A stretch of 64,000 nucleotides of DNA from positions 1,799,837 to 1,863,836 of the forward strand of contig NZ_JH976535.1 in NCBI RefSeq assembly GCF_000183545.2, in the 5' to 3' direction. A program made the position numbers and the translations under genes. A model generated the notes under the pieces. It ran no database searches, had not been told where the DNA came from, and was given only the letters and a program-made list of their open reading frames with translations. The first letter of the stretch is position 1; every line of letters begins with the position of its first letter. Origin of the DNA: Thermaerobacter subterraneus DSM 13965 (GTDB lineage Bacteria > Bacillota > Sulfobacillia > Thermaerobacterales > Thermaerobacteraceae). Of the stretch, positions 40,887-62,193 are shown piece after piece.

Positions 40887-42032
40887 TCACACCCCCACCC
40901 CCAGCGCCGCCTTCAGCGGCTCCACATCGGGGAACGAACCGCGGCCGAAAAACACCTGCCAGGCCAGCCGGCGCAAAGGCGTGCGACGAAAGGCAGCGCA
41001 GGCCAGCTCATACCACAGGGGATGCCGGAAGGTCGCCAGGACCCGCCGCATCCAGCGCCGGGAGAGGAAGCGGGGCTGGAAGGCGCCGCCGTGGTAGTGC
41101 CCCAGAATGCGGGGGTCGCCCCGGTCCAGGTAGGCCGCCACCACGTGGGCCGCCAGGTCGGACAGCCGCAGGCACGGATCGAGACCGCCGGCCGTCAGGG
41201 GCGACACGGCTCCGGCCGCATCGCCCACTAAAAGCCCCCGCGGGCAGGCGATGCGCCGCAGAACACCGCCCACGGGGATGCGGCCGCCCCGCCGCTCCAC
41301 CATCCGGCCCCTCTTGAGGCCCAAACGGGGAGCCACGCGTTCTTTGAAGGCCGCCAGGGCGGTGGTGACGTGCAAGCGGTCGGGATAGCCCCCCGTGCCC
41401 ACGTGGACCTCCTCCCCGTCGTGGACCACCCAGGCCAGATACCCCGGCGCCAGCCGCGGGTCGAGGTAGCAGTGGAAGGCGGGCGGGCCGTCCAGCGGCA
41501 CGCCCCGGTAGACTTCCTCCGCGCCCACGATCCACTCCCGGTTCACGTCAAGTCCCAGGTCCCGGGCCACCGCCGACTGGCAGCCGTCGGCGCCAATGAG
41601 AAACCGGGCCCCCACCGCCCAGCGGCGCCCTCCCGTCTCCAGGTGGACCCGGCTGGTTCGACCCGGTTCGGAGCCCAGAAACCGTGTGCCGCCGGCCCAG
41701 TGGGCGCCGGCCCCCACCGCCTCGTCGAGCCACCGGGCGTACAGGCGCCGCAGCCGGCCCACGCGGAACTCGTCATGGGGGCTCGACAGGTGAAGGGCCC
41801 GCCCCGCCGGGGAATACAGCACCACGTCCCGCACCACCGGCCCGAGGCAATCGGCGGGCAGGTCAAAGCTCTCCAGCGTCTTCCGCACGAAAATGCCTGT
41901 GGTGTGGACGAACCGGTCCACCCGGGGCTTGCGGTCGAGCAGCAGGACCTTGAGGCCTCGCCCCGCCAGCAGGCGGGCGCTCTGCAGCCCCGCCAGCCCG
42001 GCCCCCACCACGACCACGTCGTACAGGTTCAT
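40887..42032 (-). CDS. FAD-dependent oxidoreductase, geranylgeranyl reductase family
   Basis: A 381-residue flavoprotein. The dinucleotide-binding start VVVVGAGLAGLQSARLLAGRGLKVLLLDRKP, the middle motif FLIGADGCQSAVARDLGL and the second FAD motif GLLVGDAAGAVSPLTAGGLDPCLRLSDLAA mark the geranylgeranyl-reductase branch of the PHBH fold. Those enzymes saturate isoprenoid chains of archaeal lipids, chlorophyll or quinones; other members act on unrelated substrates. The ATG at 42032 has GGGAGGCG upstream. It follows the CDP-alcohol phosphatidyltransferase gene on the same strand, in a cluster with glycerol-1-phosphate dehydrogenase, which makes a lipid role attractive. The substrate is an inference. 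Confidence 0.82.
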   Translation of the reverse strand: MNLYDVVVVGAGLAGLQSARLLAGRGLKVLLLDRKPRVDRFVHTTGIFVRKTLESFDLPADCLGPVVRDVVLYSPAGRALHLSSPHDEFRVGRLRRLYARWLDEAVGAGAHWAGGTRFLGSEPGRTSRVHLETGGRRWAVGARFLIGADGCQSAVARDLGLDVNREWIVGAEEVYRGVPLDGPPAFHCYLDPRLAPGYLAWVVHDGEEVHVGTGGYPDRLHVTTALAAFKERVAPRLGLKRGRMVERRGGRIPVGGVLRRIACPRGLLVGDAAGAVSPLTAGGLDPCLRLSDLAAHVVAAYLDRGDPRILGHYHGGAFQPRFLSRRWMRRVLATFRHPLWYELACAAFRRTPLRRLAWQVFFGRGSFPDVEPLKAALGVGV

Positions 42033-42145: not shown

Positions 42146-42922
42146 CTAATGGGCGGCCTCCTGCCTCGCCACCCTCCCCAGCTCCTTCAGCACTGTGCGG
42201 AGCCCCGTCACCGAGAGGAAGGCAAAGGCGGCCGCCCCCAGCGCAAACCCCCACAAAGGCCGGTTCAAGAGCGGAAACACGGTGAAGGTCACCAGGAAGA
42301 TCTCGATGTTGCTCGGCACGGGGTAGAGCCGGTGGCGCCGGCAAAACTCCAGCCAGCGGCGCCCCAAACCCCCGCGGGCCACGGACTGCCGGACCGATTC
42401 CTCCGGCTCCCGGCCAAAGCCCAGCAGCACGTGCCGCCGCTGCACCATCAGGTAACGAATGCAGAAGAGACCGAGCCAGATGAGCCCGGCGATGAGCAGG
42501 CTGTCGTCGCCCGCCTGCCGCCAACCACCCACGGCCAGGGTCACCGCGGCGTAGACGTCCATGGACCGGTCGAAGATCCAGTCGAGGAATGCGCCCACCG
42601 GCGAGCTCATCCGCTTGTAGCGCGCCAGCTTGCCGTCGATGCAATCGAAAAGGAAGGCCACCTGGTAGAGCAGGGCCCCAAGCCACAGCATCCCGCCCAG
42701 AAAGGCAAGGCCGGCCCCCAGGCCGATGACGTTGGCGATGGCGGTCACGGCGTTGGGCGTCAGCCGGGTATGCCGGGCGATCCATACGGTCATGGGCACC
42801 GCCAGGGGATCGATCACCAGCACCGTCCACCAGCTGTCGACGGCCTTGACCATGGCCCGGCGGCGTTCCGCCTCGGTCTCCCTCGGCGTGCCCTGTCCTC
42901 CCGAGACGTTCTCCCGCTCCAC
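42146..42922 (-). CDS. CDP-alcohol phosphatidyltransferase family membrane enzyme
   Basis: Transfers a phospho-alcohol from or to a CDP-linked substrate in the membrane. The signature DGX2ARX8GX3DX3D is complete: DGKLARYKRMSSPVGAFLDWIFD. It starts with a loop-helix TRLTPNAVTAIANVIGLGAGL. About six hydrophobic segments follow. At 258 residues it is longer than PgsA-type enzymes, with a central soluble loop (RHVLLGFGREPEESVRQSVARG) after helix four, a form seen in DIPP-synthase-like and undefined members. The GTG start at 42922 has AAGGAGG ten bases upstream. It lies between murJ and the reductase gene. The alcohol acceptor cannot be told from sequence. Confidence 0.88.
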   Translation of the reverse strand: MERENVSGGQGTPRETEAERRRAMVKAVDSWWTVLVIDPLAVPMTVWIARHTRLTPNAVTAIANVIGLGAGLAFLGGMLWLGALLYQVAFLFDCIDGKLARYKRMSSPVGAFLDWIFDRSMDVYAAVTLAVGGWRQAGDDSLLIAGLIWLGLFCIRYLMVQRRHVLLGFGREPEESVRQSVARGGLGRRWLEFCRRHRLYPVPSNIEIFLVTFTVFPLLNRPLWGFALGAAAFAFLSVTGLRTVLKELGRVARQEAAH

Positions 42923-42995
42923 CCCACCCTTGCCTCCTTGTCAGGCCTCGCCCTCGGTTCCGGCGCGGCGGCTGGGTTCGCCCGGCCGAGCAGCC

Positions 42996-44756
42996 TCAGT
43001 CGCGGTCGTCCGACCGAGCGGCCTCAGCCGCGGCCCCGGGAGCCACCTCCTGGCCGCCGCTGCCGGTGCCGCTGGCGCCGCGGCTCGGGTGGCTGCCCCG
43101 GCCCCGGCGCCGCACCAGATCGAGCACGTAGGTCCGCTCTTCCACCCGGAGTAGAACCAGCATCAAAGCATACACGGCAGCCCCCACCGCGACCAGCACC
43201 AGGGTGCCGGCAAGGCGTGGCAAAAACCCTAGGGCGGCGATGTCGACCGCTCCCGGCGCCACGGATGCCCCTGGTGCCACGACCGCCAACGCGGCCCCGG
43301 CGGCCCCCGGCGCTCCGGCCGCACCGTGGGTCGCTGCCCCCAGCCACCGGCCGGCAGCAGCCAGCACCGGCACCCGCAGCAGGGCGATCGCCCCACCCAT
43401 CACCGCCGTGGCCACTGCCGCCTGCAGCACCCCGACGGCCAGGGAGCGGAACCGCAGGTCGCGGTACCGGCGCTGCAGCCGCAGGATCAGGACCACGGCC
43501 GCCCACCAGGTGGCCAGCGCCGTCGCCAGGGCGATGCCGCCGTGGTCCAGGAACCGTACCAGCACCAGGGCGAGGACGATGCTCAGCCCCATGGACATCA
43601 TGCCGTTGGTGGCGGGTGTCCGGGTATCGCCCAGGCTGTACATGGCCCGCGCCAGAAGCTCGCGCCAGGCGAAGGGCACCATCCCCAACCCGTAGAAACA
43701 CAGGGCCGTGGCCGTCATCAGGGTGTCCATGCGGTCGAAGGCGCCCCGCTGGTACACCAGGGCGGTGATGTCCTCCCGCAGCAGCACCGTCCCCACGGTG
43801 ATGGGCGCCATGACGAAGGTCAAGAGGCGCAGGGCGCGGTTCATGGTGGACGAAAGGGCCCTGAGGCGCTGCTGGGAGCCCTGCTCGGCCATCTCCGGGT
43901 ACAGCACCGTCACCAGGGGGATGGCCAGCAGGCCCAGGGGCAGCTGGTAGACCCGGTACGCGAAGGACAGGGCCGCGGCGCTGCCGGCGGGAAGGCCCGA
44001 GGCCAGGGCCCGGTTCACCACCTGACTGGCCTGGCGGGTCGCCGTGGCCAGCAGCACGGGCAGGGTCCTCCGCCCCGCCACCCGCAGCTCGGGGTCACCC
44101 AGATCCAGGACGGGCAGGTAGCCCACACCCGCCCGGCGCAGGGCCCCCCACTGGAGCAGCACCTGCGAAGCAAAGCCCGCCAGGCTTCCCCAGGCCACCG
44201 CCTCGATGCCGTAGCGGGTGCCGAGGAACCAGGTGGCGCCGATCAGCACCAGGTTCATGGGGATGGAGGCGGCGGCGGGCGCGGTGAAGCGCTTGCTGGC
44301 GTTGAGGACCCCCTCCATCCACCCCTCCATGCCCATGAAGACGATGCCGGGCAGCATGATCAGGGTGAGCCGCCGGGCCAGTTCAAACTGCTCGCCGGTG
44401 AACCCCGGCGCGAAGATCCGCACCAGCCACCCCGACCCCAGCATCGCCACGGCCAGGAGGATGAGAAGCAGCAGGAGCAGGGTGTGGAACAGGGTCCAGG
44501 CCAGCCGCCGGAACCGGTCCAGGTCGCCCCGCCCCCGGTGGGCCGCCAGCATGGGCACCATCACCGTGGTGATGGCCGTGCCGAAGGCGACGAACAGCAC
44601 CCCGGGAATCGAGAAGCTGATGGTGTAGGCGTCGCTGACGTCGCTGGCGCCGAAGACGGCGGCCAGCGCCATCTCCCGGCCGAACCCCAGCAGGCGGCCG
44701 ATGGTGGTCAGCAGGACGAACAGGCCCACGGAACGGGCCAGCCGCTGTCGCGACAA
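42996..44756 (-). CDS. murJ: Lipid II / lipid-linked polymer flippase, MurJ family
   Basis: A MOP-superfamily flippase with about 14 helices. The N-terminus SVGLFVLLTTIGRLLGFGREMALAAVFG, then SDAYTISFSIPGVLF and the central ELARRLTLIMLPGIVFMGMEG and ASGLPAGSAAALSFAYRVYQLPLGLLAI are MurJ hallmarks, not Wzx. A Gly/Ala/Pro-rich stretch of about 45 residues lies before the last two helices, and the C-terminal tail is Ser/Gly-rich. The TTG at 44756 is taken as start because GGAGG lies seven bases upstream. TTG at 44762 and GTG at 44792 are alternatives. It may be the cell's general MurJ or one dedicated to this cluster's polymer; context favours the second. Confidence 0.85.
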   Translation of the reverse strand: MSRQRLARSVGLFVLLTTIGRLLGFGREMALAAVFGASDVSDAYTISFSIPGVLFVAFGTAITTVMVPMLAAHRGRGDLDRFRRLAWTLFHTLLLLLLILLAVAMLGSGWLVRIFAPGFTGEQFELARRLTLIMLPGIVFMGMEGWMEGVLNASKRFTAPAAASIPMNLVLIGATWFLGTRYGIEAVAWGSLAGFASQVLLQWGALRRAGVGYLPVLDLGDPELRVAGRRTLPVLLATATRQASQVVNRALASGLPAGSAAALSFAYRVYQLPLGLLAIPLVTVLYPEMAEQGSQQRLRALSSTMNRALRLLTFVMAPITVGTVLLREDITALVYQRGAFDRMDTLMTATALCFYGLGMVPFAWRELLARAMYSLGDTRTPATNGMMSMGLSIVLALVLVRFLDHGGIALATALATWWAAVVLILRLQRRYRDLRFRSLAVGVLQAAVATAVMGGAIALLRVPVLAAAGRWLGAATHGAAGAPGAAGAALAVVAPGASVAPGAVDIAALGFLPRLAGTLVLVAVGAAVYALMLVLLRVEERTYVLDLVRRRGRGSHPSRGASGTGSGGQEVAPGAAAEAARSDDRD

Positions 44757-44798
44757 GGTCAAGCCTCCGTCCCCATGCCAAGGCCCCTCCACAGGGCC

Positions 44799-45905
44799 CT
44801 AGCCGTGCAACCACCGCACCGCTTCGGCGGGTTCCACCACGTCGAGGACCGTGAACCGGCCCGGGCGCATGGCCGGCGCCTGGGCCACGACCCGGGCGAT
44901 GGCCTCTTGGTCCAGGCCCAGGGCTGCCAGGTTGCCCGGGATGCCCAGACGCCGGTAGACCGCCTCCACCTCGCGGGCCAGCTCGTCCTGCCCCTGAAGC
45001 CGCAGCATGGGCGCCGTAGCCGCCGCCACCTGCAAGCCGTGGGCCGCCACGCCGCCCAGCAGGTAGTCGATGGCGTGGCTCACCAGATGCTCGCTGCCGC
45101 TGCAGGGGCGGCTTGTCCCCGCGATGGCCATGGCCAGGCCGCTCAGCATCAGGCCCTCCAGGAGCTCGACGACGAAGGCGGGGTCGTCGATGGCCTGCCC
45201 CGCGGCCAGCACCCGCAGCACCGAGCGGGCGGCGTGGCGCGCCAGGAAGGCGGAGAAGTCGTCGAACTGATCGCGGCCCCGGTCGGCGGCCAGCCGCCAG
45301 TCCTCCACGGCGGACAGGTTGGAAAGCAGGTCGCCGATGCCCGCCAGGACCATAGCCCGCGGCGCCTGGCCGATCCAGTGCAGCGGCGCGATGACGGCCG
45401 CCGGCATGGCGGCCGCCAGGCTGTGCTTGCGGTTGTCGTCGCCCCGCAGCACCGCCACCGGCGAGACGATGCCGTCGTGGGAGATCTGGGTCGGCACCGC
45501 CACCAGCGGCAGGTCCAGCTGGGCCGCCACGTGCTTGCCGGTGTCCAGCACACTGCCGCCCCCGATGGCCACCAGGCCGTCCGCCGCCACCTCCCGCACC
45601 GCGGCAGCCAGGCGGGCGCTTTCGGCCTGGGTCGGGGCGGCGGCCACCCAGGGCCCCACCAGCCTCCGAAAGCCGTCGCCGCCTGCGGGCTCGCCCGCTG
45701 CACGGCTCCCGTGGCCCCATCCGGCCCGGGCCAGGTCCGCCAGCAGGGCTTCGGCCAGGAGCCGGGTTCGTCCGGGTCCCGCCAGCACGACCGCCCGGGT
45801 CACGCCCAGCAGGTCCAGGGCCTCGGCCAGCCGCCGCGCCGCCTCGGCGGTCGACTCCACCACCTTGAGGACCCGGCTGACCTCAATGCGCCGAGCCGGC
45901 CGCAC
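44799..45905 (-). CDS. sn-Glycerol-1-phosphate dehydrogenase (AraM/EgsA family)
   Basis: Reduces dihydroxyacetone phosphate to sn-glycerol-1-phosphate, the enantiomer used in archaeal lipids. It is of the iron-containing alcohol dehydrogenase fold. NAD-binding GLVAIGGGSVLDTGKHVAAQ, the family-specific VAVPTQISHDGIVSPVAVL, metal-site GIGDLLSNLSAVEDWRLA and SGSEHLVSHAIDYLL follow EgsA/AraM order closely. At 368 residues it has usual length, with a Gly/Arg-rich insertion near 70-80. The GTG start at 45905 overlaps the nucleotidyltransferase stop by 23 bases, with GGAGGG upstream, so the two are translated together. Bacterial homologues are known from Bacillus, where the product feeds archaeal-type ether lipids. 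A dedicated prenyltransferase (PcrB) is not seen in the window. Confidence 0.88.
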   Translation of the reverse strand: MRPARRIEVSRVLKVVESTAEAARRLAEALDLLGVTRAVVLAGPGRTRLLAEALLADLARAGWGHGSRAAGEPAGGDGFRRLVGPWVAAAPTQAESARLAAAVREVAADGLVAIGGGSVLDTGKHVAAQLDLPLVAVPTQISHDGIVSPVAVLRGDDNRKHSLAAAMPAAVIAPLHWIGQAPRAMVLAGIGDLLSNLSAVEDWRLAADRGRDQFDDFSAFLARHAARSVLRVLAAGQAIDDPAFVVELLEGLMLSGLAMAIAGTSRPCSGSEHLVSHAIDYLLGGVAAHGLQVAAATAPMLRLQGQDELAREVEAVYRRLGIPGNLAALGLDQEAIARVVAQAPAMRPGRFTVLDVVEPAEAVRWLHG

Positions 45906-46914
45906 CGGCGCCGCCCTCCCCGCTTTCCGCGAAGGACGCGTACACCGCCTGGGCGCGCCGGTAGTCCTCGGGCGTGTCGACCTCCGTCCAGGGCAACCCG
46001 TCGATAAACAGCGGCCGCAGCCGGATCGCCCCCAGGCAGCGGTGGATCGCGTCTTCGTAATAAAGGTGGGTGGTACCGGCCGCCAGCACCTGGGCGGTCA
46101 GGTCAAGGACCCGGGCGGCGTCGGCCGGCGTCAGGTAAAGGATGCCGATGTACTCGCCCGCCGACTCCCCCGGCGGCAGCTGCTTGCTCACCGCCCGGAT
46201 GAACCCGGCCCCGTCCAGCGCCACCTTCATCTCCTCTTCCGCCAGGTGGACGGTGCCGTCGACCACCATGAAGGACTGATCCGGCTCCGCCAGCACCTGG
46301 GCCACGGCCCGCGCCAGAATGGCCGGGTGGTAGACGATGTCCGAGTTCAGCAGCAGGCAGGGCTGCTCGAAGGCCTCCCGGGCGAAGTACACGGTGCCCG
46401 CATTGTTCACCGTCTGGTAATCGGGGAACCGGCGCAGGACGATCCGGCCTGCCCGCAGCGCCTCCCCCCACCGAGCCTGCACGTGGGCCTCCAGGGCGCC
46501 GAAGGCGTGGCCGCCCACGATGTAGACCCGCTCCACCGGATGGGCGGCGAGGCACGCCAGGGAGTGGTCGAGGAAGGTCACCGGACGGGGTGGCACGGCG
46601 GCTGTGGCCGCCGCCGGCTCCGGCGGCGCCCCGGTCCCCGGAGGGTCCCCCGCGGTCCCCGGGGCAGCCGCCGCGGTCGCCGAAGCGGCCTCACCGGTCC
46701 CCGGGGCAGCCGTCGCAGTCCCGGCAGCGGCCTCCGCCAGTTCCAAGGCGGTCCGGTCGCCACAGCTCGCCGCCGGTCCGGACGGGGCCGGGTTCCCATC
46801 CCCTCTGCCCACCGCCCCACCCTCTGCACCCAGGGGCAACAGCGCCTTGGGTCGCTCCCGGGTCAGCTCGCCCAGGCGGCTGCCCACGCCTGCCGCCAGG
46901 ATCAGCGCATTCAT
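45883..46914 (-). CDS. Sugar/alcohol-phosphate nucleotidyltransferase, LicC/IPCT-like
   Basis: A Rossmann-type nucleotidyltransferase of the cytidylyltransferase branch. It opens MNALILAAGVGSRLGELT with RPKALLPLG. An 80-residue Ala/Gly/Thr/Pro-rich block follows (about 26-107), then VTFLDHSLACLAAH resumes the fold. Downstream, VNNAGTVYFAREAF, LLNSDIVYHPAIL, EEEMKVAL, GEYIGILYL and WTEVDTPEDYRRAQ match LicC and inositol-1-phosphate cytidylyltransferases. The start ATG at 46914 shares an ATGA overlap with the upstream glycerophosphotransferase stop. An in-frame ATG at 46947 lies inside that gene. Its overlap with the glycerol-1-phosphate dehydrogenase gene suggests glycerol-1-phosphate as substrate, giving a CDP-glycerol; that is inference. 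Confidence 0.8.
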   Translation of the reverse strand: MNALILAAGVGSRLGELTRERPKALLPLGAEGGAVGRGDGNPAPSGPAASCGDRTALELAEAAAGTATAAPGTGEAASATAAAAPGTAGDPPGTGAPPEPAAATAAVPPRPVTFLDHSLACLAAHPVERVYIVGGHAFGALEAHVQARWGEALRAGRIVLRRFPDYQTVNNAGTVYFAREAFEQPCLLLNSDIVYHPAILARAVAQVLAEPDQSFMVVDGTVHLAEEEMKVALDGAGFIRAVSKQLPPGESAGEYIGILYLTPADAARVLDLTAQVLAAGTTHLYYEDAIHRCLGAIRLRPLFIDGLPWTEVDTPEDYRRAQAVYASFAESGEGGAGAAGSAH

Positions 46915-48113
46915 CGGCGGGTGGATCCCGCCCGTCTCGGTGGCCATCGCCGGTTCATCAGCTCCTCGATCCGCCCTGCCAGCCGGGCACAGGCCTGACC
47001 CGGCGGCTGGGCAAAGTAGCGCGCATAAAGCTCCTCCTGGCGGCGGGCCCCCGCCTCCGTCAGGCGCCCGTGGAGCAGGACGTGCTCCAGGACGGCGGCC
47101 AGTTCGTCCATGGTCCGCGCCACGTCGCCGGGAAACCCGTCGGGAAAGGGCCAGTGGACGCCGCGAGCCTCATCGTACTCGTGCAGGTCGGGCACGTAGA
47201 AGATGATGGGCCGGCGCAGCACGAGAAGATCAACGCCGAGGCTCGAGTAGTCGGTGATCAGCACGTCGACCCCGGCCAGGTACTCGTAGATGTCGGGCGC
47301 CACATCCCGGTGGAAAGGCCGCAGCCGCCCGCCCACCCGGGCGGGCCGCCAGCGGGAATAAAGCGGGTGGGTCCGCAGGAGAACCAGCGCCCCGGCCCGC
47401 TCCAGCAGCGGCGCCAGCCGGTCCCAGTCGGGCTCCGCTTCGATCCCCTGCTCCCGCCAGGTGGGTGCGTAGAGCACCACCGGCTCGGGCAGCGCCTCGG
47501 CCGCCATGCCCAGCGCCCGGGCGATCCGGGCGCGGGCAGCCTCCCGCGTGTCGCGCAGCAAGGCATCGTGGCGCGGGTAGCCGTCCAGCACCAGGGCGCC
47601 CGGCTTCAGGGGGATGGTGGTCCCCCACTCGGGGGCCACTTCCCGGGAAGGGGTGGTGACCAGGTCGTACCGGGCGAAGAACTCCCGCTGCTTGCGCACC
47701 ACCCGCTCGGGCGCCGTGCGGGCGGGTTCCCGCTTGGGTCCCACCCCGTGCCAGAGCTGGACGGTGATCCGCCGGCGCGGATCCCAGGCTGGGAGCAGCG
47801 GTCCGTGGTCCATCACCCACACGCCGCTGCGCAGGGCGGTCCACAGGCCCCGCAGGCTGCGGGCGAAGACCGCCTCCATGCCCCGCTGCTCCGCCCACCG
47901 GACCAGGTCCCGATCATGGAACCACCAGATCAGGCGCTCGCCCCCGCGGGCCGCCATGTATTCATAGAGGTACCGGGCGTTGTCCGAATAGGTCCACCCG
48001 TTGCTGGCCGAAAAGAGCACCTGGCGCTTTTTCGGCACCAGGGCATCCAGGAGCACCAGCAACCGTTCGGCCACCCCGGCCAGCCGCCGCCCCACCCGCC
48101 AGATCCAGGACAT
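46911..48113 (-). CDS. CDP-glycerol:glycerophosphotransferase family protein
   Basis: A 400-residue GT-B-like transferase of the TagB/TagF family, which adds phosphoglycerol from CDP-glycerol to wall polymers. Family motifs: ITVQLWHGVGPKRE, DLVTTPSREVAPEWG, LDGYPRHDALL, VLYAPTWREQG, LLRTHPLYSR, ITDYSSLGVDLLVLRRPIIFYV and the following YDEARGVHW. It lies at the head of the coupled set: its stop overlaps the nucleotidyltransferase start as ATGA. The ATG at 48113 has no strong ribosome site nearby (GGAGGGAG is some 15 bases off). It is peripheral to the cytoplasmic membrane in the family. Length favours a TagB-like single-transfer enzyme or a short polymerase. Confidence 0.88.
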   Translation of the reverse strand: MSWIWRVGRRLAGVAERLLVLLDALVPKKRQVLFSASNGWTYSDNARYLYEYMAARGGERLIWWFHDRDLVRWAEQRGMEAVFARSLRGLWTALRSGVWVMDHGPLLPAWDPRRRITVQLWHGVGPKREPARTAPERVVRKQREFFARYDLVTTPSREVAPEWGTTIPLKPGALVLDGYPRHDALLRDTREAARARIARALGMAAEALPEPVVLYAPTWREQGIEAEPDWDRLAPLLERAGALVLLRTHPLYSRWRPARVGGRLRPFHRDVAPDIYEYLAGVDVLITDYSSLGVDLLVLRRPIIFYVPDLHEYDEARGVHWPFPDGFPGDVARTMDELAAVLEHVLLHGRLTEAGARRQEELYARYFAQPPGQACARLAGRIEELMNRRWPPRRAGSTRR

Positions 48114-48281: not shown

Positions 48282-49958
48282 TCAGGCCCGCTCCCGCTGG
48301 CGCTGCAGCATCCACGCCGCTCCGAGCACGAGCCAGTATACCGAGGCCAGGGGCTGATTTTCCCAGGAATTCTGACCCAAGCCAAAGCTTACCATCGCCA
48401 CGACCACCGCCGTCCCCGCCGCTCCCAGGAGCCAATCGAAGGCCACCGCCCGGTAGGCCAGGGCCAGCGTCGACAGGATGATGGCGCCCAAACCCAGCAG
48501 ACCCAGTCCGCCCAGCTCCATGGCCGTGCGCACGTACTGGTTGTCCGCATAGGCGTAGTCGGGCATCTGGTAACGTTCGCGGATCTCGGGATCCGGCCGC
48601 AGCGCCCCCGCGCCCCCCACCCGGCCCGGCCCCACGCCAAAGACCGGGTGATCGCGGAGCATCGCCATGGCATAGCGCACCATGGCCAGCCGTCCCGACG
48701 CCCGGGACAACTCCACCGTTTCCTCGTCGAAGGTCTCCCGCAGGCGCTCGATCTGCAGGCCCCGGGTCGCCCCGGCGCCACCTTCGCCGCCGCGGGCCAG
48801 CACGCTCCAGATGGGGACCGGCAACACCGTGGCGATCACCGTCACCACCAGGGTGACGGCCAAAAGTACCGCGGTGACCCGGAGGGGGATCACCCGGCGC
48901 GCCAGCCAGCCCGCAGCCACCAGGGCCAGTGCCAGGGCCAGCCAGCCCTGGCGCGAGTAGGTCAAGGCCAGCCCCACGATCAGCAGGATGGCGATCCCCC
49001 ACGCGCCCCAGTCCCGCCGCCGCTCGGCCACCGCCGTGGCCCAGCGCGGCCAGTGCAGGATCAAGCCCAGCACCAGAAAGCACCCCAGGGTGTTGGGGTT
49101 CTTCATCAAGCCGACGGCCCGCCCCACGTTGGACCCGGTGAGGGTGACCACCCACTTCCACGGCCCGAACCAGCCCGCCAGCAGCACCCCGGCCACCTCG
49201 ACGGCCGCCATGAACACCGCCAGCCCGATCATCCAGCGCCAGAGGGAGCTCATCCACGCGCCGGACGAACCGGCCAGGGCCGCCACACCCTCGGCGGTGG
49301 GCTCGCCAGCCACCCGCCGCGGCGCCCCTACAGCCCCCGCGCTCCATCCGGTGGCGGCGCCGGCCTGAGCCCTGGAGGCGGCCCGATTCCGGTTCCGGCC
49401 CCCGCCCTGCGATCCCGCACCCGCCGCGGCCCCGCGGCTGCGGCTCCGCTCCGGCCCCCGCGTCCACGGCCCGTGGGCGGCTTCCCAAGCCTCCACGGTG
49501 GCCGCGCCGAGCAGCAGGGTGGACCATAGGACCAGGCTGCGGATGCCGGTGGCCAGGTCCATCAGGCCCCGGCCATTCACCACCGACGAGGCCACCACGG
49601 CCAGGACCGCCAGGCCGACGGCCCCGACCAGCGCCCAGGCCAGCCGGTTCGTCCCGCCCCGGGCGGGCCAGAAGGATCGCCGCAACGCGGGATCCGACAG
49701 CAGGGCCAGGACGGCCAGGCCGCCAAGACCCGCGGAGAAGAGGTCGCTCAGCCAGCGCAGGGGCGACCACACGAAATCGACCAGAACGAAGCGAAAGGCC
49801 AGGTAGGGGATGGCCACCGCCATCAGCAGGCGGATGCCCTGGACCGCCAGGTGCGACGGTCCCCGGGGCTGGGCGCGGCGGGCGCCCGCCACGGCCGGCC
49901 CGCGCCGGCCTTCGCCTTTTCCGTAGGACATCGCTGTTGCCGTCCGGTGCCGGGCCAT
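48282..49958 (-). CDS. O-antigen ligase / polymerase family membrane protein (Wzy_C)
   Basis: A 558-residue multi-helix membrane protein. The Wzy_C signature region is present: LTGSNVGRAVGLMKNPNTLG, IVGLALTYSRQGWLALAL and, after a large outer loop, MLRDHPVFGVGPGRVGGAGA. The outer-loop arginine and histidine (LRDHPVFGVG) are the usual active-site region. About eleven hydrophobic segments are visible. A 70-residue basic, Gly/Ala-rich block (about 160-232) interrupts the N-terminal half. The ATG at 49958 has AAAGGGTGAG upstream. It lies between the GT4 gene and the glycerophosphotransferase gene. It probably polymerises or transfers a lipid-linked glycan to the wall. Confidence 0.85.
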   Translation of the reverse strand: MARHRTATAMSYGKGEGRRGPAVAGARRAQPRGPSHLAVQGIRLLMAVAIPYLAFRFVLVDFVWSPLRWLSDLFSAGLGGLAVLALLSDPALRRSFWPARGGTNRLAWALVGAVGLAVLAVVASSVVNGRGLMDLATGIRSLVLWSTLLLGAATVEAWEAAHGPWTRGPERSRSRGAAAGAGSQGGGRNRNRAASRAQAGAATGWSAGAVGAPRRVAGEPTAEGVAALAGSSGAWMSSLWRWMIGLAVFMAAVEVAGVLLAGWFGPWKWVVTLTGSNVGRAVGLMKNPNTLGCFLVLGLILHWPRWATAVAERRRDWGAWGIAILLIVGLALTYSRQGWLALALALVAAGWLARRVIPLRVTAVLLAVTLVVTVIATVLPVPIWSVLARGGEGGAGATRGLQIERLRETFDEETVELSRASGRLAMVRYAMAMLRDHPVFGVGPGRVGGAGALRPDPEIRERYQMPDYAYADNQYVRTAMELGGLGLLGLGAIILSTLALAYRAVAFDWLLGAAGTAVVVAMVSFGLGQNSWENQPLASVYWLVLGAAWMLQRQRERA

Positions 49959-50101: not shown

Positions 50102-51283
50102 TCACCCCAGCCAGCGGCGGTACAACTCGACGAACCGGCGCGCCGCCGCCAGGTGGGAATGGTGCTCCAGCACGTAGTCCCGGCCGGCGGCGCCCAGGGC
50201 CCGGGCCCGCGCGGGCTCGGCCGCCAGCTGGGCCAGGGCCCGGGCGATGGCCAGGGGGTTCCGGTCGGGCACCAGCCTCCCCGTCACCCCATCGCGGACG
50301 ATCTCCTTGAGCCCGCCCACGGCCGACGCCACCACCGGCCGCCCGAAGACCATGGCCTCCAGGGCGCTGATGGAGGTGGCCTCCTCCACTCCCGCCTCGT
50401 GCACCGAGGGGATGACCACGGCGTCGGCGGCGGCGTAGTACGCCGGCATCGCCTCATGGGGCCGGCCGCCTTCCAGCCGGCAGAGGTCGTCCAGCCGCCC
50501 GCCCTGGACCGCGGCCCGCAGCTCCGCCCACTGGGGACCGTGGCCCACCACCAGCAGCAGCGGGCGCGAGCCCTCCGGCCAGGGCACCCGCCCGTCCCGC
50601 ACCGCCGCCATGGCCTGAACGGCATAGGCCACCCCGTTCTTGGGGGTCAGGCGCCGGGGGCAGAGGACCACGAAGACTCCGTCCGGAATCCCCAGCCTCC
50701 GCCGGGCCTCCGCGGGCGGCGGCGCCTGGTCGGGCCAGCTGCCGTCGACGAAGTTGGGGATCACCGTCACCCGGCCGGCTGCGCCCAGCTGCTCCACGTG
50801 GCGGCGCAGCCGCTCGTCCACGGTGACCACGTGGGCCGCCCCCGCTAGGGCCCGCCTCTCCAGATCCAGGTGCCACGCTTCGGGGCGCGTCCCCGGCCGG
50901 ATGCGGCGCGCGGCCAGGTGCTCGCCCGTGGCGTAGCCGTGCACGGTGTAGACGTAAGGCAGACCGGCCCGCTGGGCCGCAACGGCCGCCATGGGATCCT
51001 CCACGTTCAGGGCGTCGAGCCAGCCCGCCTCCCGGCGCAGGAGATGGGTGAGGAACCGGGCACGCATGGCGCTGCTCCAGGTGGTGCCCCAGCCGCGGCG
51101 CAGGCGGTTGAGCACCCACGAGGGCCCCCGGGTGGCCACGTGGTGTAGCGGCGGGAAGTTGTTGAAGGACAGGATGCGGACCTCATGCCCCTGGGCAGCC
51201 AGGCCCCGGGAGAGCAGCTCCACATGGGTCGACAGCCCGCCCTGGTGGGGAAACTGGTAACTGGTGGCGAGGACAATCCGCAA
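50102..51283 (-). CDS. Glycosyltransferase, GT4 family
   Basis: A 393-residue GT-B glycosyltransferase. The N-terminal domain opens LRIVLATSYQFPHQGGLSTHV with the Gly-rich acceptor loop. The middle has YVYTVHGYATGEHLA and VIPNFVDGSWP. The donor-site motif is HEAGVEEATSISALEAMVFG with ASAVGGLKEIVRDGVTGRLV, the E-x7-E pattern of retaining GT4 enzymes. The TTG at 51283 is taken as start: GGGAGG stands eight bases upstream and the first strand begins at once. It is the first gene of the envelope cluster. It probably builds the glycan part of the polymer from galU/manC-type nucleotide sugars; the donor is not predictable. Confidence 0.88.
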   Translation of the reverse strand: MRIVLATSYQFPHQGGLSTHVELLSRGLAAQGHEVRILSFNNFPPLHHVATRGPSWVLNRLRRGWGTTWSSAMRARFLTHLLRREAGWLDALNVEDPMAAVAAQRAGLPYVYTVHGYATGEHLAARRIRPGTRPEAWHLDLERRALAGAAHVVTVDERLRRHVEQLGAAGRVTVIPNFVDGSWPDQAPPPAEARRRLGIPDGVFVVLCPRRLTPKNGVAYAVQAMAAVRDGRVPWPEGSRPLLLVVGHGPQWAELRAAVQGGRLDDLCRLEGGRPHEAMPAYYAAADAVVIPSVHEAGVEEATSISALEAMVFGRPVVASAVGGLKEIVRDGVTGRLVPDRNPLAIARALAQLAAEPARARALGAAGRDYVLEHHSHLAAARRFVELYRRWLG

Positions 51284-51692
51284 TCCTCGAACCTCCCGCC
51301 CATACCCTTCGTGTCGAACGGGCGCGAACTGGCCCGCCGGAGGCGCAGGGCCAGGGACCAGTGACTTAAGGTAGCGCGGCACGGAGGCGACGGCCTAGCC
51401 GCTTCACGGTGGCGGCGTGCCGGCGGCGCGTGCCGGTCCCGGCCGGGACGGCACTCGGCCATGCCCCGCCTGCTTCACAAGGGCGCCATGACCGTGGCCC
51501 CCCACCGCAGCCGGCGTGCGCCATGCCGGTTGCGCCCTCAGGGTACCATGCCGGCCGCCTGGGCGCGAAGGTCAACATGCCCAGCGTCCCCTGGGTCCGT
51601 GTTCATGCCACGAGGGAGGCCGGGTTTGGCCTCCCTCGTGGTGATCGCACCCGCGGCGGCAAGGGGCGGAAGCCCATCTCCAGCGTGCGCGG
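51284..51692. other. Gap upstream of the GT4 gene
   Basis: About 410 bases between the GT4 gene and the SpoIID-SLH stop, both on the minus strand. It contains the hairpin at 51608-51641 and presumably the promoter of the envelope cluster. No promoter boxes or coding frame could be supported. Confidence 0.45.
51608..51641 (-). terminator. Hairpin terminator after the SpoIID-SLH gene
   Basis: A perfect 14-bp stem CCACGAGGGAGGCC (51608-51621), loop of six, GGCCTCCCTCGTGG (51628-51641). It lies about 50 bases past the stop codon. No T-tract follows. Confidence 0.6.
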
Positions 51693-54314
51693 TCAAGGCT
51701 GGCAGTTGCCCGCCCAGCAGTACTCGAACCCCCGCACCGCCACCGCCGCCGCCATGGCCCGCGTCATGGTCTCACCGGGTGCGAACCTGGTGTCGCTGAT
51801 GCCCTTCATGATCCCGGCCGCCGAGACAGCACCGATGGCTCCGGCAAAGGCGCCGTTATCCGGCACATCCTTGAAGGATTCGGGCTGCACGGGCAAGCCA
51901 AACGCCCGCTTCAGGATGGCCGCCGCCTCCTGGCGGTTGATCGGCTTGTCGTAGCCGAAGCTGCCGTCGCTGTAACCGTTGATGATCCCCGCCGTATAGG
52001 CCTTCAAGATGTAGTCATAGAACGCCTGGCCGGGCTGCACATCGGAGAAGTTCGGCGGCTCTTCACCCTTGGGCAGTGGGCCGCCGCGCAGCCTCTCCAG
52101 CGCCTCCACGATCATCTTGGTGAAGGCACCCCGGGTCAGCTTCTCCTCGGGGTAGAACCGGGCCCACAGGTCCCCGTCCACCAGCCCCGCCTGGTAGGCG
52201 CGGTTGACATCCTCCTTCAGAGCGCCCGCCACGTCGGTGAACTCCCGGGGGTAGAGCTTGTCCGGCAAGAGGAAGGCCGAAGGCAGGCCCACCCGCGACC
52301 GGAAGACCCGGGCCAGGACCTCCACGCTGCCCGCACTGCCGGTGATCCGAATAACCCTCGGCGTCATGCTGTCGGGGTTTCGCGCCCCCTCGGGGACTTC
52401 GATGCGCTGCAGCGTACCGATCTCGGGCCACAACTTCTCGATCACCGTGAGGGACACGTCCCGGCGCCAGCGGAAGTAGGTGTCCTCATAGCTTGTCCCT
52501 TTATATTGGTAGAACTCCGGCGTGATGGCGGTGCCGTCGGCCAGGACGAACCGGTCTTCCCGGCCGCGCAGGTAGGGCAGAGGCTCTCCCGTCCCGTCGC
52601 CGAAGGCCTCGGTGTTGGACGCCACGTACCCGCCGTTGCCCGCGGTAAAGTTGGCAGAGATCAGCGCCCCGCCGTACATCAAGACCTGGGCGTCGGTGGC
52701 CTGGACCACCTGCTCGATCTTCGGCCGGTAGGTCTTGTCGCTGTACCGCCCATAGAAGACCTGGTCGTACGTCGAATCCACCAGGTTCGTGGTCAGGCCG
52801 AAGTTCTGCCGGGCGGCATAGGTCCGGGCCGCCACCGCCTGCGCCTTCAGGGCCTCGACGGACCAGGACGCCGGCGACTCGTGGGGCACCACCCCGACCA
52901 GGTAGTCGTAGAGGCTCACCTTGTTCCGGACGATGATGCCCGCATTGCTGCTCCCCACCTTCTTCGGCGCCTCAAACTCCAGTCGCCCTTCGTAATCGCG
53001 GCAGCCGCGGAAGGCGTGTTCGGACTTTACGTCACAATTCGTCAGCGGGTAGTGCAGCTGGGCCGTCTTGCCCTGGGGAATCACCAGCTCGAGTCGCTCG
53101 GTGGTCGAACCCGAGGAGGCGGGCTTGCCGCGGAGCTCGAACACCGGCCCGCCGGTCGCCTGCGATGCCCAGCGGAATCCTACGGCTGCATCGAAGGTCA
53201 CGTTGTACGTGCCGGCCGGTAGCGCTTGGGTGCTCGCCCCTTCCAGGGTCGCACCATCCGGCACGTCGACCACCCAAAGCAGACGTGGCTGGGGCGAACC
53301 GCTCTGGACACCGTTTTCATCCAAAGAGAGCCCAACCCGCACCTGCTGCTTGGCGTCGGCCGTATTACGCTTGACCAGCTCAGCCCCGGGGTAGTAGTGG
53401 GCCAGAATGTCCCGATAAGGCACCCCCAGCTTTCCAAGCCCCTGGGCACCCCGCTGGGACATCCCGGTCCGGTGGCCGTACCCCCCGCCGAAGAACCGCA
53501 CCCAGTCCGTGTTGGGGTTCGGCTGGGTCGATGTCGCCGTGGCGGACGCCCCGGACGCCGATGCGTCAGTCCCCGTGGCCGTGGCGCCCGTCCCCTCCCC
53601 CGACCCGCCCGCAGGGGTGGTACCCGAATCGGCCGTGGCACCCGATTCTGCGGTGGTCGCCGAACCGGCCGCCGCGTCCCCGCCACCACCCGGATTTGTC
53701 CCGGAATCACTTCCACCGGTGCTCGTCGACGCGTCCCCATTGGTGCCCGTGACCTGGGAATCGCCGCTCGCCTGAAGCGTCCAACCGGCGGTCTTAGCGG
53801 AGACTTTCGTAGCAGCACCCCCGGCCGTCCCCACCACGACGGGCCCCACCCGAGGCTGGGTGGTTTCGCCGGGCACCTCTGCGAAGGCGAGGGTGACCTC
53901 CGCCGCCCCGGGCGGAACGACCACCTCATGGACCAGCCCGCCCGGAACGACATCCACGATCCGAACCTCGGCCCCCTGTGGTACCTGCAGAACGGGCCCA
54001 CCCTGCGGGACCACGAACTGTACGGCCTGCGCCCCCTCAGGCAGGGCCAGCCTCATGCGACCCTCAGGAGCGGTGAGTTCCCAGGCCTGCCCCGTCCATA
54101 CCAATCCATGGGCCTGGAGTACGGGACTACCCACTGCCTTGGGGGACACCTTGGCGGAAGTGGAGGGAACATGCGAGCTGGCGCCCGCGAGCGGACCGAA
54201 GCTGAGCATGAGGGACACCGAGACTGCCGACGCAAGCCAGGCAAGCCTTCCGCCCGAACGCCGTTGCCGCTGGCAGCCCAGCCGGCCGTGCGGCCCTGTA
54301 AGCATACAACGCAT
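51693..54314 (-). CDS. Secreted SpoIID/LytB-domain protein with three SLH domains
   Basis: An 873-residue exported protein. A signal peptide (LAWLASAVSVSLMLSFGPLAGA) is followed by a beta-rich N-terminal domain and a Ser/Thr/Gly/Ala-rich linker. The SpoIID domain comes next (FFGGGYGHRTGMSQRGAQGL, VSLYDYLVGVVPHESPASWS, LKAQAVAARTYAARQ), and three SLH domains occupy the last about 190 residues (FTDVAGALKEDVNRAYQAGL, FSDVQPGQAFYDYILKAYTAG, FKDVPDNGAFAGAIGAVSAAG). SpoIID proteins cut denuded glycan strands of peptidoglycan. SLH anchoring keeps this one at the wall, so it is likely a vegetative wall hydrolase rather than a sporulation factor. The ATG at 54314 has GGAGGG exactly six bases upstream; earlier frames start inside intron-derived sequence. 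Confidence 0.9.
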   Translation of the reverse strand: MRCMLTGPHGRLGCQRQRRSGGRLAWLASAVSVSLMLSFGPLAGASSHVPSTSAKVSPKAVGSPVLQAHGLVWTGQAWELTAPEGRMRLALPEGAQAVQFVVPQGGPVLQVPQGAEVRIVDVVPGGLVHEVVVPPGAAEVTLAFAEVPGETTQPRVGPVVVGTAGGAATKVSAKTAGWTLQASGDSQVTGTNGDASTSTGGSDSGTNPGGGGDAAAGSATTAESGATADSGTTPAGGSGEGTGATATGTDASASGASATATSTQPNPNTDWVRFFGGGYGHRTGMSQRGAQGLGKLGVPYRDILAHYYPGAELVKRNTADAKQQVRVGLSLDENGVQSGSPQPRLLWVVDVPDGATLEGASTQALPAGTYNVTFDAAVGFRWASQATGGPVFELRGKPASSGSTTERLELVIPQGKTAQLHYPLTNCDVKSEHAFRGCRDYEGRLEFEAPKKVGSSNAGIIVRNKVSLYDYLVGVVPHESPASWSVEALKAQAVAARTYAARQNFGLTTNLVDSTYDQVFYGRYSDKTYRPKIEQVVQATDAQVLMYGGALISANFTAGNGGYVASNTEAFGDGTGEPLPYLRGREDRFVLADGTAITPEFYQYKGTSYEDTYFRWRRDVSLTVIEKLWPEIGTLQRIEVPEGARNPDSMTPRVIRITGSAGSVEVLARVFRSRVGLPSAFLLPDKLYPREFTDVAGALKEDVNRAYQAGLVDGDLWARFYPEEKLTRGAFTKMIVEALERLRGGPLPKGEEPPNFSDVQPGQAFYDYILKAYTAGIINGYSDGSFGYDKPINRQEAAAILKRAFGLPVQPESFKDVPDNGAFAGAIGAVSAAGIMKGISDTRFAPGETMTRAMAAAVAVRGFEYCWAGNCQP

Positions 54315-54399
54315 CCTATACCCTCCGTGACCCGTTCCGGCGCACGCTGTGCGCCTCCCCTGCACCGTTCCCCCTTTCTTTCCACCCTTCGACAAGAAG

Positions 54400-54718: not shown

Positions 54719-54746
54719 TTGGGCCCGGGTTCAAACCCGGGCCCAA
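54719..54746 (-). terminator. S-layer gene terminator hairpin
   Basis: TTGGGCCCGGGTT with AACCCGGGCCCAA forms a near-perfect stem of 12-13 bp around a tiny loop. It lies 40 bases after the reading frame's presumed original stop at 54786 but overlaps the present stop at 54731. The T-tract is missing because the intron fragment begins right after it. Confidence 0.65.
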
Positions 54747-57376: not shown

Positions 57377-57541
57377 CTCCGGACCTCCTCCTCTGTCCCT
57401 AATGGACGGGGACTTGGTGGGCTCTGCACCCACCCCCCGCGGCATCCACCGGGCCCCGAAAGGATCGGTGGCTTCCGCGGGTATCGCGCCGGGACGACCA
57501 ACGGGACCCGTATGTATCGGCCTTCCGTGGTCCCCGCGGCG

Positions 57542-58759: not shown

Positions 58760-58788
58760 GTCCTTGGATGATTTTGGGGGGCCTGCCC

Positions 58789-60057: not shown

Positions 60058-60128
60058 GACCGGCACCGCCGATCCGCAAGGATCGGCTGCCTGAAACAGA
60101 TGACGATGTTTCAGGTAACGGTTTCAGG
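59960..60128 (+). ncRNA. Candidate omega RNA (reRNA) scaffold and right end of the tnpB element
   Basis: A series of hairpins overlaps the 3' end of tnpB and continues past it: CCCGT-gg-ACGGG (59975-59986), CCTGCC-GCAA-GGCAGG (59995-60010), GCCGATCC-GCAA-GGATCGGC (60068-60087) and CCTGAAACA with TGTTTCAGG (60090-60115). A direct copy of GTTTCAGG at 60121-60128 reaches the csaB stop codon. TnpB guide RNAs are known to come from exactly this place, with the guide just beyond the element's right end. The exact 3' boundary is not certain. Confidence 0.55.
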
Positions 60129-62193
60129 CCTCCCCGGACCAGCGGCGGCTGGCGGCGTCGGCGTAGTCCAGGTGGGCCGAGGCCAGGGCGGCCAGGGGGC
60201 GGGTGGCTCCGGCGATCCGGCGGCGGAGGGCATCGTAGCCGGCCTCGACCGCCTCCAGGCCGGCCTTAAGGTCCTTCGCGGAGACGGTCTCCAGGTCATA
60301 CACGTACCGGTCCAGCCCCAGCCGGCCCAGCACGCCCGCCACCTTGGGATCGTAGTTCAAGGCCAGGACGGGGACGCCCGCCCGGACGGCGAAGATCAAG
60401 AAGTGCAGCCGCATGCCCACGGCCAGCCACGAGCCGGCGACAACCGCCTCAATCTCGGCCGGAGTCAGGGTGGCCGGCAGGATGCGGACGCGGGGGCCAT
60501 GGCCACCCGCAGGCCCTTCTTCGATCAGGTCAGCCAGGCGCTGGGAGGCCTCGTGGTCGAGCCGGCCTTCCATGGGCACCAGGACCACCTCCACATCCGG
60601 GCGGGTGGCCAGCACGTGGCTCAGGAAAGCCGCCAGTTCCGGGAAGAAGCGGTCCTGGCCGGGCCAGCTGCGCACCGACACGGTGATCAGGCGCCTGGCT
60701 GGCCCCGCCCCCCGGCCGAGTCCGGAGGGATCGAAAGGCGGATCGAAAATTTGGGCGAGGGGCTTCGCGCCCGCCCCGGGCCGGGGCAAGCTGAACACGA
60801 AGTCCGCCAGCAGCTCCCGCACCGGACGGCGGACCCCCACCTGCTCAAGAAGGTGGAGGGAGCCCTCGTCCCGGGTGGTGATGACATCAGCCTGGGACGC
60901 CAGCCAGCGGGTGAGGAAACGGGCCCAGCGGCCCCGCAGGGGCCCGACGCCATGGCCCAGGAACAGCACCCAGCAGCCCGCCAGGCGGGCCCAGCTGGCG
61001 ATCATTAAATAATAAGGAACGGGACCGCGCAGCAGGAAGGTGCGGGAGGTATCCTGCAAAAGGCCCCCACCGCCCGAGATGAACACCCCCGCCCGCCCCA
61101 GGGCCCGCGCCTTGGCCAGAAGATCCCTTCGCCAACCCCGGTATACACTCTTCACCCCGTGGGTACGAGCGGTTTCTTCCGGGCGGATGGAGAAGACCGT
61201 GATATCTTCATACCCGCGCTGGCGCAGCTGCCTCAGGACCGCGTCCAGGATCGCCTCATCCCCTGCGTTGCCCGCCCCGTAGAAGCCGGAAAGAACCACC
61301 GGTGGCCGGCGCGCCGGCCGGGGAGGAACCTGCGCACCGGCACGGTGGACGGCCGCCGGCTCGAGCCGCCAGCGGGCAGAGGCGTAGGCGGAAAGGCGGG
61401 CCAGGGTGAGCTGGTAATCCCACAGGGCAACAAGGACACCAAAATCGTACCATGGCCCTGGGCCGGCGTCGTGCCATCCCCCTCCGGTGCCCTGTTCCAC
61501 CAGTGGTCCTGAGACCAATCCGGCGACCGCCAGAAAGAAGGTGGCAAGGAGCAGACGCCCGGCGGCAGGCCGCAACCGCGCGTCCCGGCGGGCCATTTGC
61601 CAGAGCGCCAGGGCTGAAACGGCCGCCAGGGGCCAGGCCATCCCCCAGCGTAAGACCGGTGCAGCCACGGGCCGGTCCCGGCTGGCGACGGCGGGGAGTG
61701 CCGCACCGGTGGAGGCGGTCCCGTTGCCGGGTTCCGACGACACGCCCACCCCCGCCTCGCCCACGAGTCCCGCAGCGGCCACCAGCAACAGCAGGAGGCT
61801 TAGCAGCGCAACCCCCGTGGCGGCAGCCCCCAGCCAGGGTGAGGGGACTGGTACGGGTTCTTGGGGAGATCCCGCGGCCGGGGGACGCCACCGGCGCAGC
61901 AGGGCATAGACGCCCCAACCGGCCAGGACCGGCTCTAGCGGCAGCGGCCGCCCGCCGAGACGCGCCCACAAAGCGGCGGCGGCCACCAGGACCACCGCCG
62001 CTTCCACCAGGTTGATCGGATCGGCGAACCACCGGTTCCGGAAGCCACCCCTCCGTGAACCTTGCGGGTCTGCGCGACGCCTCACGACGTACCATCCTCT
62101 GGCCTGCGACATCGTCTCCAACCCGGGCCCGCCCATCACCGCACCACCCGCGCAAGGACATGGATGCGGCGTGACCGCTAGGCGAACCATCAC
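60124..62193 (-). CDS. csaB: CsaB-type polysaccharide pyruvyltransferase with N-terminal membrane domain
   Basis: Adds pyruvate ketals to wall polysaccharide, creating the ligand for SLH domains. The catalytic part is residues about 295-689: PVVLSGFYGAGNAGDEAILDA, VKSVYRG, GVFISGGGGLLQDTSRTF, FLGHGVGPLRGRWARF, SVRSWPGQDRFFPEL and VAGSWLAVGMRLHFLIFAVRAGVPVLALNYDPKV match CsaB closely. Standard CsaB has about 370 residues; here about 290 additional N-terminal residues carry five or so hydrophobic segments, so the enzyme is tethered in the membrane. The GTG at 62193 overlaps the amidase stop (GTGA) and is coupled to it; ATGs at 62190, 62136 and 62112 are alternatives. The tnpB element ends at its stop codon. 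Confidence 0.9.
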   Translation of the reverse strand: MMVRLAVTPHPCPCAGGAVMGGPGLETMSQARGWYVVRRRADPQGSRRGGFRNRWFADPINLVEAAVVLVAAAALWARLGGRPLPLEPVLAGWGVYALLRRWRPPAAGSPQEPVPVPSPWLGAAATGVALLSLLLLLVAAAGLVGEAGVGVSSEPGNGTASTGAALPAVASRDRPVAAPVLRWGMAWPLAAVSALALWQMARRDARLRPAAGRLLLATFFLAVAGLVSGPLVEQGTGGGWHDAGPGPWYDFGVLVALWDYQLTLARLSAYASARWRLEPAAVHRAGAQVPPRPARRPPVVLSGFYGAGNAGDEAILDAVLRQLRQRGYEDITVFSIRPEETARTHGVKSVYRGWRRDLLAKARALGRAGVFISGGGGLLQDTSRTFLLRGPVPYYLMIASWARLAGCWVLFLGHGVGPLRGRWARFLTRWLASQADVITTRDEGSLHLLEQVGVRRPVRELLADFVFSLPRPGAGAKPLAQIFDPPFDPSGLGRGAGPARRLITVSVRSWPGQDRFFPELAAFLSHVLATRPDVEVVLVPMEGRLDHEASQRLADLIEEGPAGGHGPRVRILPATLTPAEIEAVVAGSWLAVGMRLHFLIFAVRAGVPVLALNYDPKVAGVLGRLGLDRYVYDLETVSAKDLKAGLEAVEAGYDALRRRIAGATRPLAALASAHLDYADAASRRWSGEA

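Follow-up and report, generated by a model that had tools for sequence, protein, structure and literature searches.

A candidate route to CDP-1-glycerol in an apparently variable surface-polymer locus of Thermaerobacter subterraneus

In Bacillus subtilis, the wall teichoic acid (WTA) contains sn-glycerol-3-phosphate and the lipoteichoic acid the sn-1 form (PMC7086022). For the pneumococcal capsule type 23F, the genes wchX (glycerol phosphotransferase), gtp1 (dehydrogenase), gtp2 (nucleotidyl transferase), and gtp3 (phosphotransferase) are listed (PMC3493582). Archaeal glycerophosphoinositol synthesis uses CDP-1-glycerol, a compound thought to be probably absent from bacteria, with the ether lipid of the Bacillales as the named exception (PMC8262930). 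The established bacterial use of sn-glycerol-1-phosphate (G1P) is by AraM and PcrB (PMC13400652). Here we analysed a stretch of 64,000 nucleotides from the heat-loving, Gram-positive Thermaerobacter subterraneus DSM 13965 (the window), which carries overlapping genes for a TagF-type glycerophosphotransferase, a nucleotidyltransferase, and a dehydrogenase. Judging from their sequences and surroundings, we consider it fairly probable that these genes belong to a route leading from dihydroxyacetone phosphate (DHAP) via G1P and CDP-1-glycerol to an S-layer-associated glycan. The three genes and the two that follow them are:

46911..48113, minus strand: TagB/TagF-family glycerophosphotransferase (PF04464, E=2e-55; 74% identity in the congener G003)
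45883..46914, minus strand: LicC/PntC-type nucleotidyltransferase, proposed CTP:sn-glycerol-1-phosphate cytidylyltransferase (PF12804/PF00483)
44799..45905, minus strand: G1P dehydrogenase (G1PDH)-family enzyme, proposed to convert DHAP to G1P (NF002022, motifs, and tree)
42996..44792, minus strand: MurJ-family flippase (TIGR01695, 339 bits, above the cut-off)
42146..42922, minus strand: CDP-alcohol phosphotransferase, membrane type (PF01066, E=4e-13; D..DG..AR motif)

An initial annotation of this DNA had named these genes, and their places, overlaps, and common direction are borne out by the positions of the open reading frames and by domain matches. It gave the gene set as 42146-48113; all genes were found, but the reductase that it included falls outside this range (40887-42032). 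The ATGA overlap at 46911-46914, which joins the TagF-type and nucleotidyltransferase genes, is real; a start there gives MNALILAAG, and this N-terminus aligns with those of relatives. The nucleotidyltransferase and dehydrogenase genes overlap by 23 bases (45883-45905). The TagF-type gene is the sole PF04464 copy in the genome, and its product has all of the motifs WHGxxxK, RTHP, and TDYSS. The D..DG..AR...G...D...D motif of the CDP-alcohol phosphotransferase is likewise complete.

In the proposed route, the dehydrogenase would convert DHAP to G1P, and the LicC/PntC-type enzyme would join G1P and CTP to give CDP-1-glycerol. The TagF-type enzyme would move the G1P group onto a lipid-linked glycan assembled by the neighbouring glycosyltransferase, and the membrane CDP-alcohol phosphotransferase would probably transfer a G1P group as well. 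MurJ and Wzy-like proteins would export and join the product to yield an S-layer-associated wall polymer. The module would thus stand in for TagD and sn-glycerol-3-phosphate. We infer that CTP and glycerol phosphate are the substrates, that the chirality is sn-1, that a glycan is the acceptor, and that both transferases draw on the product.

The B. subtilis WTA pathway (TagO, TagA, TagB, TagD, and TagF) resembles the locus in its PF04464 transferase. It differs in having TagD, whereas here the dehydrogenase and the LicC/PntC-type enzyme would supply the donor, with sn-1 chirality expected. The absence of TagD claimed by the initial annotation was confirmed genome-wide: at E <= 0.001, the whole T. 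subterraneus genome gave no match, as against 12 of 14 control genomes that did. The TagD on which the classical WTA pathway depends is therefore lacking in this genome.

We took the best G1PDH-family matches, together with their surroundings, from a phylum sample of 398 genomes. The dehydrogenase and nucleotidyltransferase genes are adjacent in eight of them, representing five genera (T. subterraneus itself, G000; its congener G003; G148; G107; G179; G145; G372; and G088, with two copies). The pair is also adjacent in Streptomyces fungicidicus, Streptomyces sp. BHT-5-2, and Nonomuraea gerenzanensis. The dehydrogenase gene comes first in some genomes and the nucleotidyltransferase gene in others, which suggests functional coupling rather than one inherited arrangement. 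In G107, G179, and G145, the order is WecA/TagO-like, TagB-like (PF04464), DUF5693, TagA-like, nucleotidyltransferase, and dehydrogenase. These relatives thus add TagO-, TagA-, and TagB-like genes to the likeness with B. subtilis WTA, and they bear out the tie of the pair to tag-like polymer clusters. G372 has TagF, dehydrogenase, and nucleotidyltransferase, and G148 has MurJ, nucleotidyltransferase, dehydrogenase, and CDP-alcohol phosphotransferase, followed by an S-layer homology (SLH) protein and a CsaB-like gene. The S. fungicidicus cluster, found in an annotated plasmid record, opens with a fusion of DUF5941 and a CDP-alcohol phosphotransferase; next come the nucleotidyltransferase, the dehydrogenase, another CDP-alcohol phosphotransferase, a glycosyltransferase, and an ABC-2 exporter. 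The other two actinomycetes have the same first four genes. No paper on DUF5941 was found in a literature search. No further pair was found in the class of G372 (1 of 37 genomes) and none in the viral contigs searched, and the sole match of a single-protein search of wider genome contigs was an unrelated Fe-ADH.

The pair genomes were found via the dehydrogenase, so that an association with PF04464 is not built into the sample. PF04464 occurs in 43 of the 398 genomes, namely, in seven of the eight pair genomes versus 36 of the 390 others (Fisher p = 8e-7). Because three of the pair genomes are congeners of each other and two more come from the genus of the window, the count by genus is the safer one (4 of 5 pair genera versus 29 of 261; p = 9e-4). 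All eight PF04464 genes of the seven pair genomes lie at most ~4 kb from a pair. In the congener G003, the linkage of all three genes is kept at 63-74% identity. Compared across this congener, other genera, and other phyla, the linkage of the three overlapping genes exceeds chance, in line with the conserved functional unit that the initial annotation had seen in them.

Two features of these relatives are noted here in their own right. In the G107-type cluster (L061 8436-10388), the DUF5693 protein lies between the TagB-like and TagA-like genes. The S. fungicidicus cluster (L091 6432-13487) adjoins hopanoid genes, and two CDP-alcohol phosphotransferases flank its pair.

Each of the two G088 loci carries a TagF gene followed by dehydrogenase, nucleotidyltransferase, and HAD genes, and the type 23F order wchX, gtp1, gtp2, gtp3 mirrors these gene kinds (PMC3493582). 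The window shares with the pneumococcal set the glycerol phosphotransferase, dehydrogenase, and nucleotidyltransferase, a likeness judged from the kinds of gene. In a pneumococcal-type pathway, the dehydrogenase would turn dihydroxyacetone into glycerol, with a HAD-type phosphotransferase forming glycerol-2-phosphate and the nucleotidyltransferase CDP-2-glycerol for the TagF-type enzyme. The biochemical roles of the CDP-2-glycerol genes were reportedly described by Wang and colleagues in 2010 (J Bacteriol; cited in PMC3716944). For the window, we consider such a pathway unlikely. A gtp3-like HAD gene is missing from the window, G003, G148, the G107-type clusters, G372, and the actinomycete clusters and is present in G088 alone (L064, L065), and the window adds a CDP-alcohol phosphotransferase. 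Because G088 alone has such a gene where gtp3 stands in the pneumococcal set, this genome, and not the window, is probably of the pneumococcal CDP-2-glycerol type.

We then return to the route via CDP-1-glycerol and its first enzyme. The best NCBIfam match of the dehydrogenase is NF002022, glycerol-1-phosphate dehydrogenase (221 bits). It shares with the paired relatives the signature DGxxSP, AGxGDxxSN...DW, and SRPxSGxEHxxSH, which GldA-type enzymes do not have; the stretch SRPxSGSEH is present in the window enzyme and absent from the eight GldA/Fe-ADH rows of the alignment. It also carries Asp192, His273, and His289, which, from the family alignment, we take to be the metal ligands. In trees built without the long-branched DL011, GldA is split from the EgsA/AraM-side dehydrogenases, including the window enzyme, with 100/100 support. 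AraM-type enzymes form one clade (100/100) and the solitary short enzymes, together with the solved 3ce9, another (100/98), with the paired enzymes, that of the window among them, outside both. A single clade of paired dehydrogenases is not rejected (p-AU 0.50 and 0.36). The solitary enzymes come from Nitratidesulfovibrio and Cytobacillus plasmids and from gut phage-labelled scaffolds, and no nucleotidyltransferase of the pair type was found within the stretches examined around them. By these sequence criteria, the dehydrogenase falls with EgsA/AraM; it belongs to neither the AraM nor the solitary bacterial type. The grouping with polyol dehydrogenases that would have spoken against the initial annotation thus did not occur.

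The dehydrogenase might instead mainly feed PcrB, which forms the heptaprenylglyceryl phosphate ether lipid, and be near the polymer genes by mere chance, with the nucleotidyltransferase activating something else. PcrB is indeed encoded in the genome, and a G1PDH-family dehydrogenase is what the locus has in common with the AraM/PcrB system of the Bacillales. But PcrB is present in all four congeners (the genus sample of four genomes) and the dehydrogenase in only two. The pcrB gene lies ~450 kb away (G000:C1:2295098-2295757), the window enzyme falls outside the AraM clade, and its conserved partner is the nucleotidyltransferase rather than PcrB. We therefore regard this explanation as very improbable. 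The two other PcrB-bearing congeners have no G1PDH-family match at all, so that either another source of G1P exists or PcrB uses something else. AraM-like long dehydrogenases were seen in many genomes of the phylum sample, apparently a wider distribution than the restriction to Bacillales quoted in PMC8262930.

For the nucleotidyltransferase, the nearest solved relative is PntC, and the best solved matches of its cluster relatives are LicC and PntC. The paired homologues share the residues NN, NxD, ExMKV, SK, and WxExD. LicC acts on phosphocholine and PntC on aminoethylphosphonate, and both are CTP enzymes, which makes the use of CTP likely here as well. Known donors of PF04464 transferases are CDP-polyols. 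From the coupling to the dehydrogenase on one side and to PF04464 transferases on the other, we infer glycerol phosphate as the other substrate. A LicC-like phosphocholine enzyme or a sugar-phosphate enzyme, with choline or sugar phosphate on the polymer, would fit the solved matches to LicC and the NCBIfam matches, all of which stay below their cut-offs. No LicA or LicD domain was found among the polymer-locus genes, to which this search was limited, and the constant partner across two bacterial phyla is a G1PDH-family dehydrogenase; we hold it to be highly unlikely that the enzyme serves choline or sugar phosphate.

With regard to the transferase that would use CDP-1-glycerol, Cps7D makes polymer from the pure compound and Cps3D does not (PMC8262930). 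TagF-like enzymes can therefore be tolerant of this donor. The other candidate user is the CDP-alcohol phosphotransferase. Its gene directly follows the pair in L060 of the phylum sample and in the three actinomycetes (L091-L093), and its occurrence within the genus is limited to the genomes that have the other glycerol-phosphate genes, so that it probably belongs to the system, likely as a second user of the CDP-alcohol.

It is also conceivable that the CDP-alcohol phosphotransferase is the only user, joining the glycerol phosphate of CDP-1-glycerol to inositol phosphate (or to a lipid), as in glycerophosphoinositol synthesis of Archaeoglobus and Aquifex, with the TagF-type gene as an unrelated neighbour. 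Its best matches are archaetidylinositol- and phosphatidylinositol-phosphate synthases, and its nearest structures are AF2299 and an inositol-phosphate cytidylyltransferase/phosphotransferase. The genome encodes both a CDP-alcohol phosphotransferase and an inositol-1-phosphate source, which such a pathway needs, and has a separate nucleotidyltransferase/CDP-alcohol phosphotransferase fusion; since an inositol-phosphate synthase is present, a product of this kind has to be considered. Moreover, G148 and the three actinomycetes have the pair and a phosphotransferase without an adjoining TagF gene. However, the TagF-type gene overlaps the nucleotidyltransferase gene in both T. subterraneus and G003, and PF04464 genes lie beside the pair in seven of eight pair genomes. 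In addition, with its glycosyltransferase and ABC-2 exporter genes, the S. fungicidicus cluster fits a glycan that leaves the cell, whereas the archaeal pathway, alike in CDP-glycerol and the CDP-alcohol phosphotransferase, yields a soluble solute with neither TagF nor exporter. Taken together, we judge a glycerophosphoinositol-like product to be rather unlikely.

The fusion lies elsewhere in the genome, beside the inositol-1-phosphate synthase gene (L087, G000:C1 ~30-33 kb), and this locus probably represents the di-myo-inositol-phosphate solute pathway. A phosphotransferase related to that of the fusion was found in all four congeners. A di-myo-inositol-phosphate pathway was rejected for the window genes, since its fusion and synthase are encoded at L087.

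The remaining genes of the surroundings help to delimit the module of the proposed CDP-1-glycerol route:

40887..42032, minus strand: geranylgeranyl-reductase-like flavoprotein (TIGR02032, GG-red-SF, 132.7 bits, below the cut-off)
48282..49958, minus strand: Wzy_C/O-antigen-ligase-like membrane protein of the polymer locus (PF04932; counterpart in the congener G002)
50102..51382, minus strand: GT4 glycosyltransferase of the polymer locus (PF00534/PF13439; 67% identity in G003, 59% in G002)
51693..54395, minus strand: SLH and SpoIID protein at the locus border (PF00395, PF08486; 80% identity in G002)
54731-57445, minus strand: SLH protein
60124..62193, minus strand: CsaB-like polysaccharide pyruvyltransferase, possible polymer modifier (PF04230, E=5e-37)

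Within the genus, the TagF-type, dehydrogenase, and CDP-alcohol phosphotransferase genes occur only in T. subterraneus and G003 (2 of 4 genomes), and in both the nucleotidyltransferase gene adjoins the TagF-type and dehydrogenase genes. At the same place, G002 has the SLH-SpoIID protein (80%), the glycosyltransferase (59%), Wzy_C, MurJ (52%), a further glycosyltransferase, and the reductase (94.5%); relatives of TagF, nucleotidyltransferase, dehydrogenase, and phosphotransferase were looked for at this locus and not found. Because G002 keeps the borders without these genes, the region seems to be a surface-polymer locus with conserved borders and variable content, in which the glycerol-phosphate genes form one exchangeable module. 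Judged by the homologue at the cassette-free G002 locus, MurJ belongs to the locus and is not specific to the module. The reductase, 94-95% identical in two congeners, including G002 with its MurJ/Wzy locus, is by the same comparison a conserved border gene; its conservation without the cassette rules it out as a member of the system. The initial annotation had suggested that the phosphatidyltransferase and the reductase may build a lipid anchor; the former stands as a probable member of the system and the latter does not, and an ether-lipid anchor finds no support, PcrB occurring in all four congeners, two of them without the dehydrogenase. By position, the pyruvyltransferase and the SLH proteins may act on the same polymer.

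Several observations weigh against the route via CDP-1-glycerol. The dehydrogenase does not reach the curated NF002022 cut-off of 413 bits, which is reached by no genome in the phylum sample. The nucleotidyltransferase contains an Ala/Pro/Gly-rich, low-complexity insert of ~70 codons after the N-terminal motif (window ~46600-46830), which neither the congener's copy nor any relative has, and its single-sequence structure prediction has a pLDDT of 42. In favour of the route, TagD scores do not exceed 45 bits in any of the eight pair genomes, and 16 of the 36 other PF04464 genomes have a match of >75 bits; yet the exclusion between TagD and the pair among PF04464 genomes is weak as a test, with p = 0.03 for a threshold set once the scores were known and p = 0.17 at the curated cut-off. 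Finally, a homologue of the same paired type sits in the pneumococcal CDP-2-glycerol-shaped cluster of G088, so that the product cannot be read from the family alone.

The statement of the initial annotation that no described pathway has this combination was too strong, given the pneumococcal wchX-gtp1-gtp2-gtp3 set (PMC3493582) and the archaeal use of CDP-1-glycerol (PMC8262930). Each part is of a known kind, and a dehydrogenase and a nucleotidyltransferase feeding a glycerol-phosphate transferase have, by analogy, a pneumococcal precedent. New are the TagD-less and HAD-less arrangement with a non-AraM G1PDH and the repeated finding of it alongside TagO/TagA/TagB-like genes, CDP-alcohol phosphotransferases, and an ABC exporter, as is the prediction of CDP-1-glycerol in bacteria. 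No paper describing the arrangement was found in a literature search limited to open-licence papers. If the route holds, bacteria would gain a second route to glycerol-phosphate polymers, with the enantiomer so far known from LTA (PMC7086022), through a conserved pair that adjoins TagB/F and CDP-alcohol phosphotransferase genes in actinomycetes as well as in Firmicutes-type genomes. In archaea, a cytidylyltransferase activity prefers G1P, and no gene has been assigned to it (PMC8262930); the pair supplies candidate genes. As a broader and more tentative proposal, bacteria might possess a dedicated CDP-1-glycerol pathway, composed of a non-AraM G1PDH and a LicC/PntC-type cytidylyltransferase, for assembling G1P surface polymers in the cytoplasm, and the same nucleotidyltransferase family might hold the missing archaeal enzyme.

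Two further features of the window were noted. At 35376-39911 (minus strand), a 1511-aa helicase with an MTES_1575 endonuclease domain is encoded, with PADLOC matches to the candidate defence families PDC-S37 and Hhe. An IS605-type TnpB/OrfB gene (58768-60057) lies on the plus strand, opposite to its neighbours, with the SLH genes on one side and the pyruvyltransferase gene on the other.

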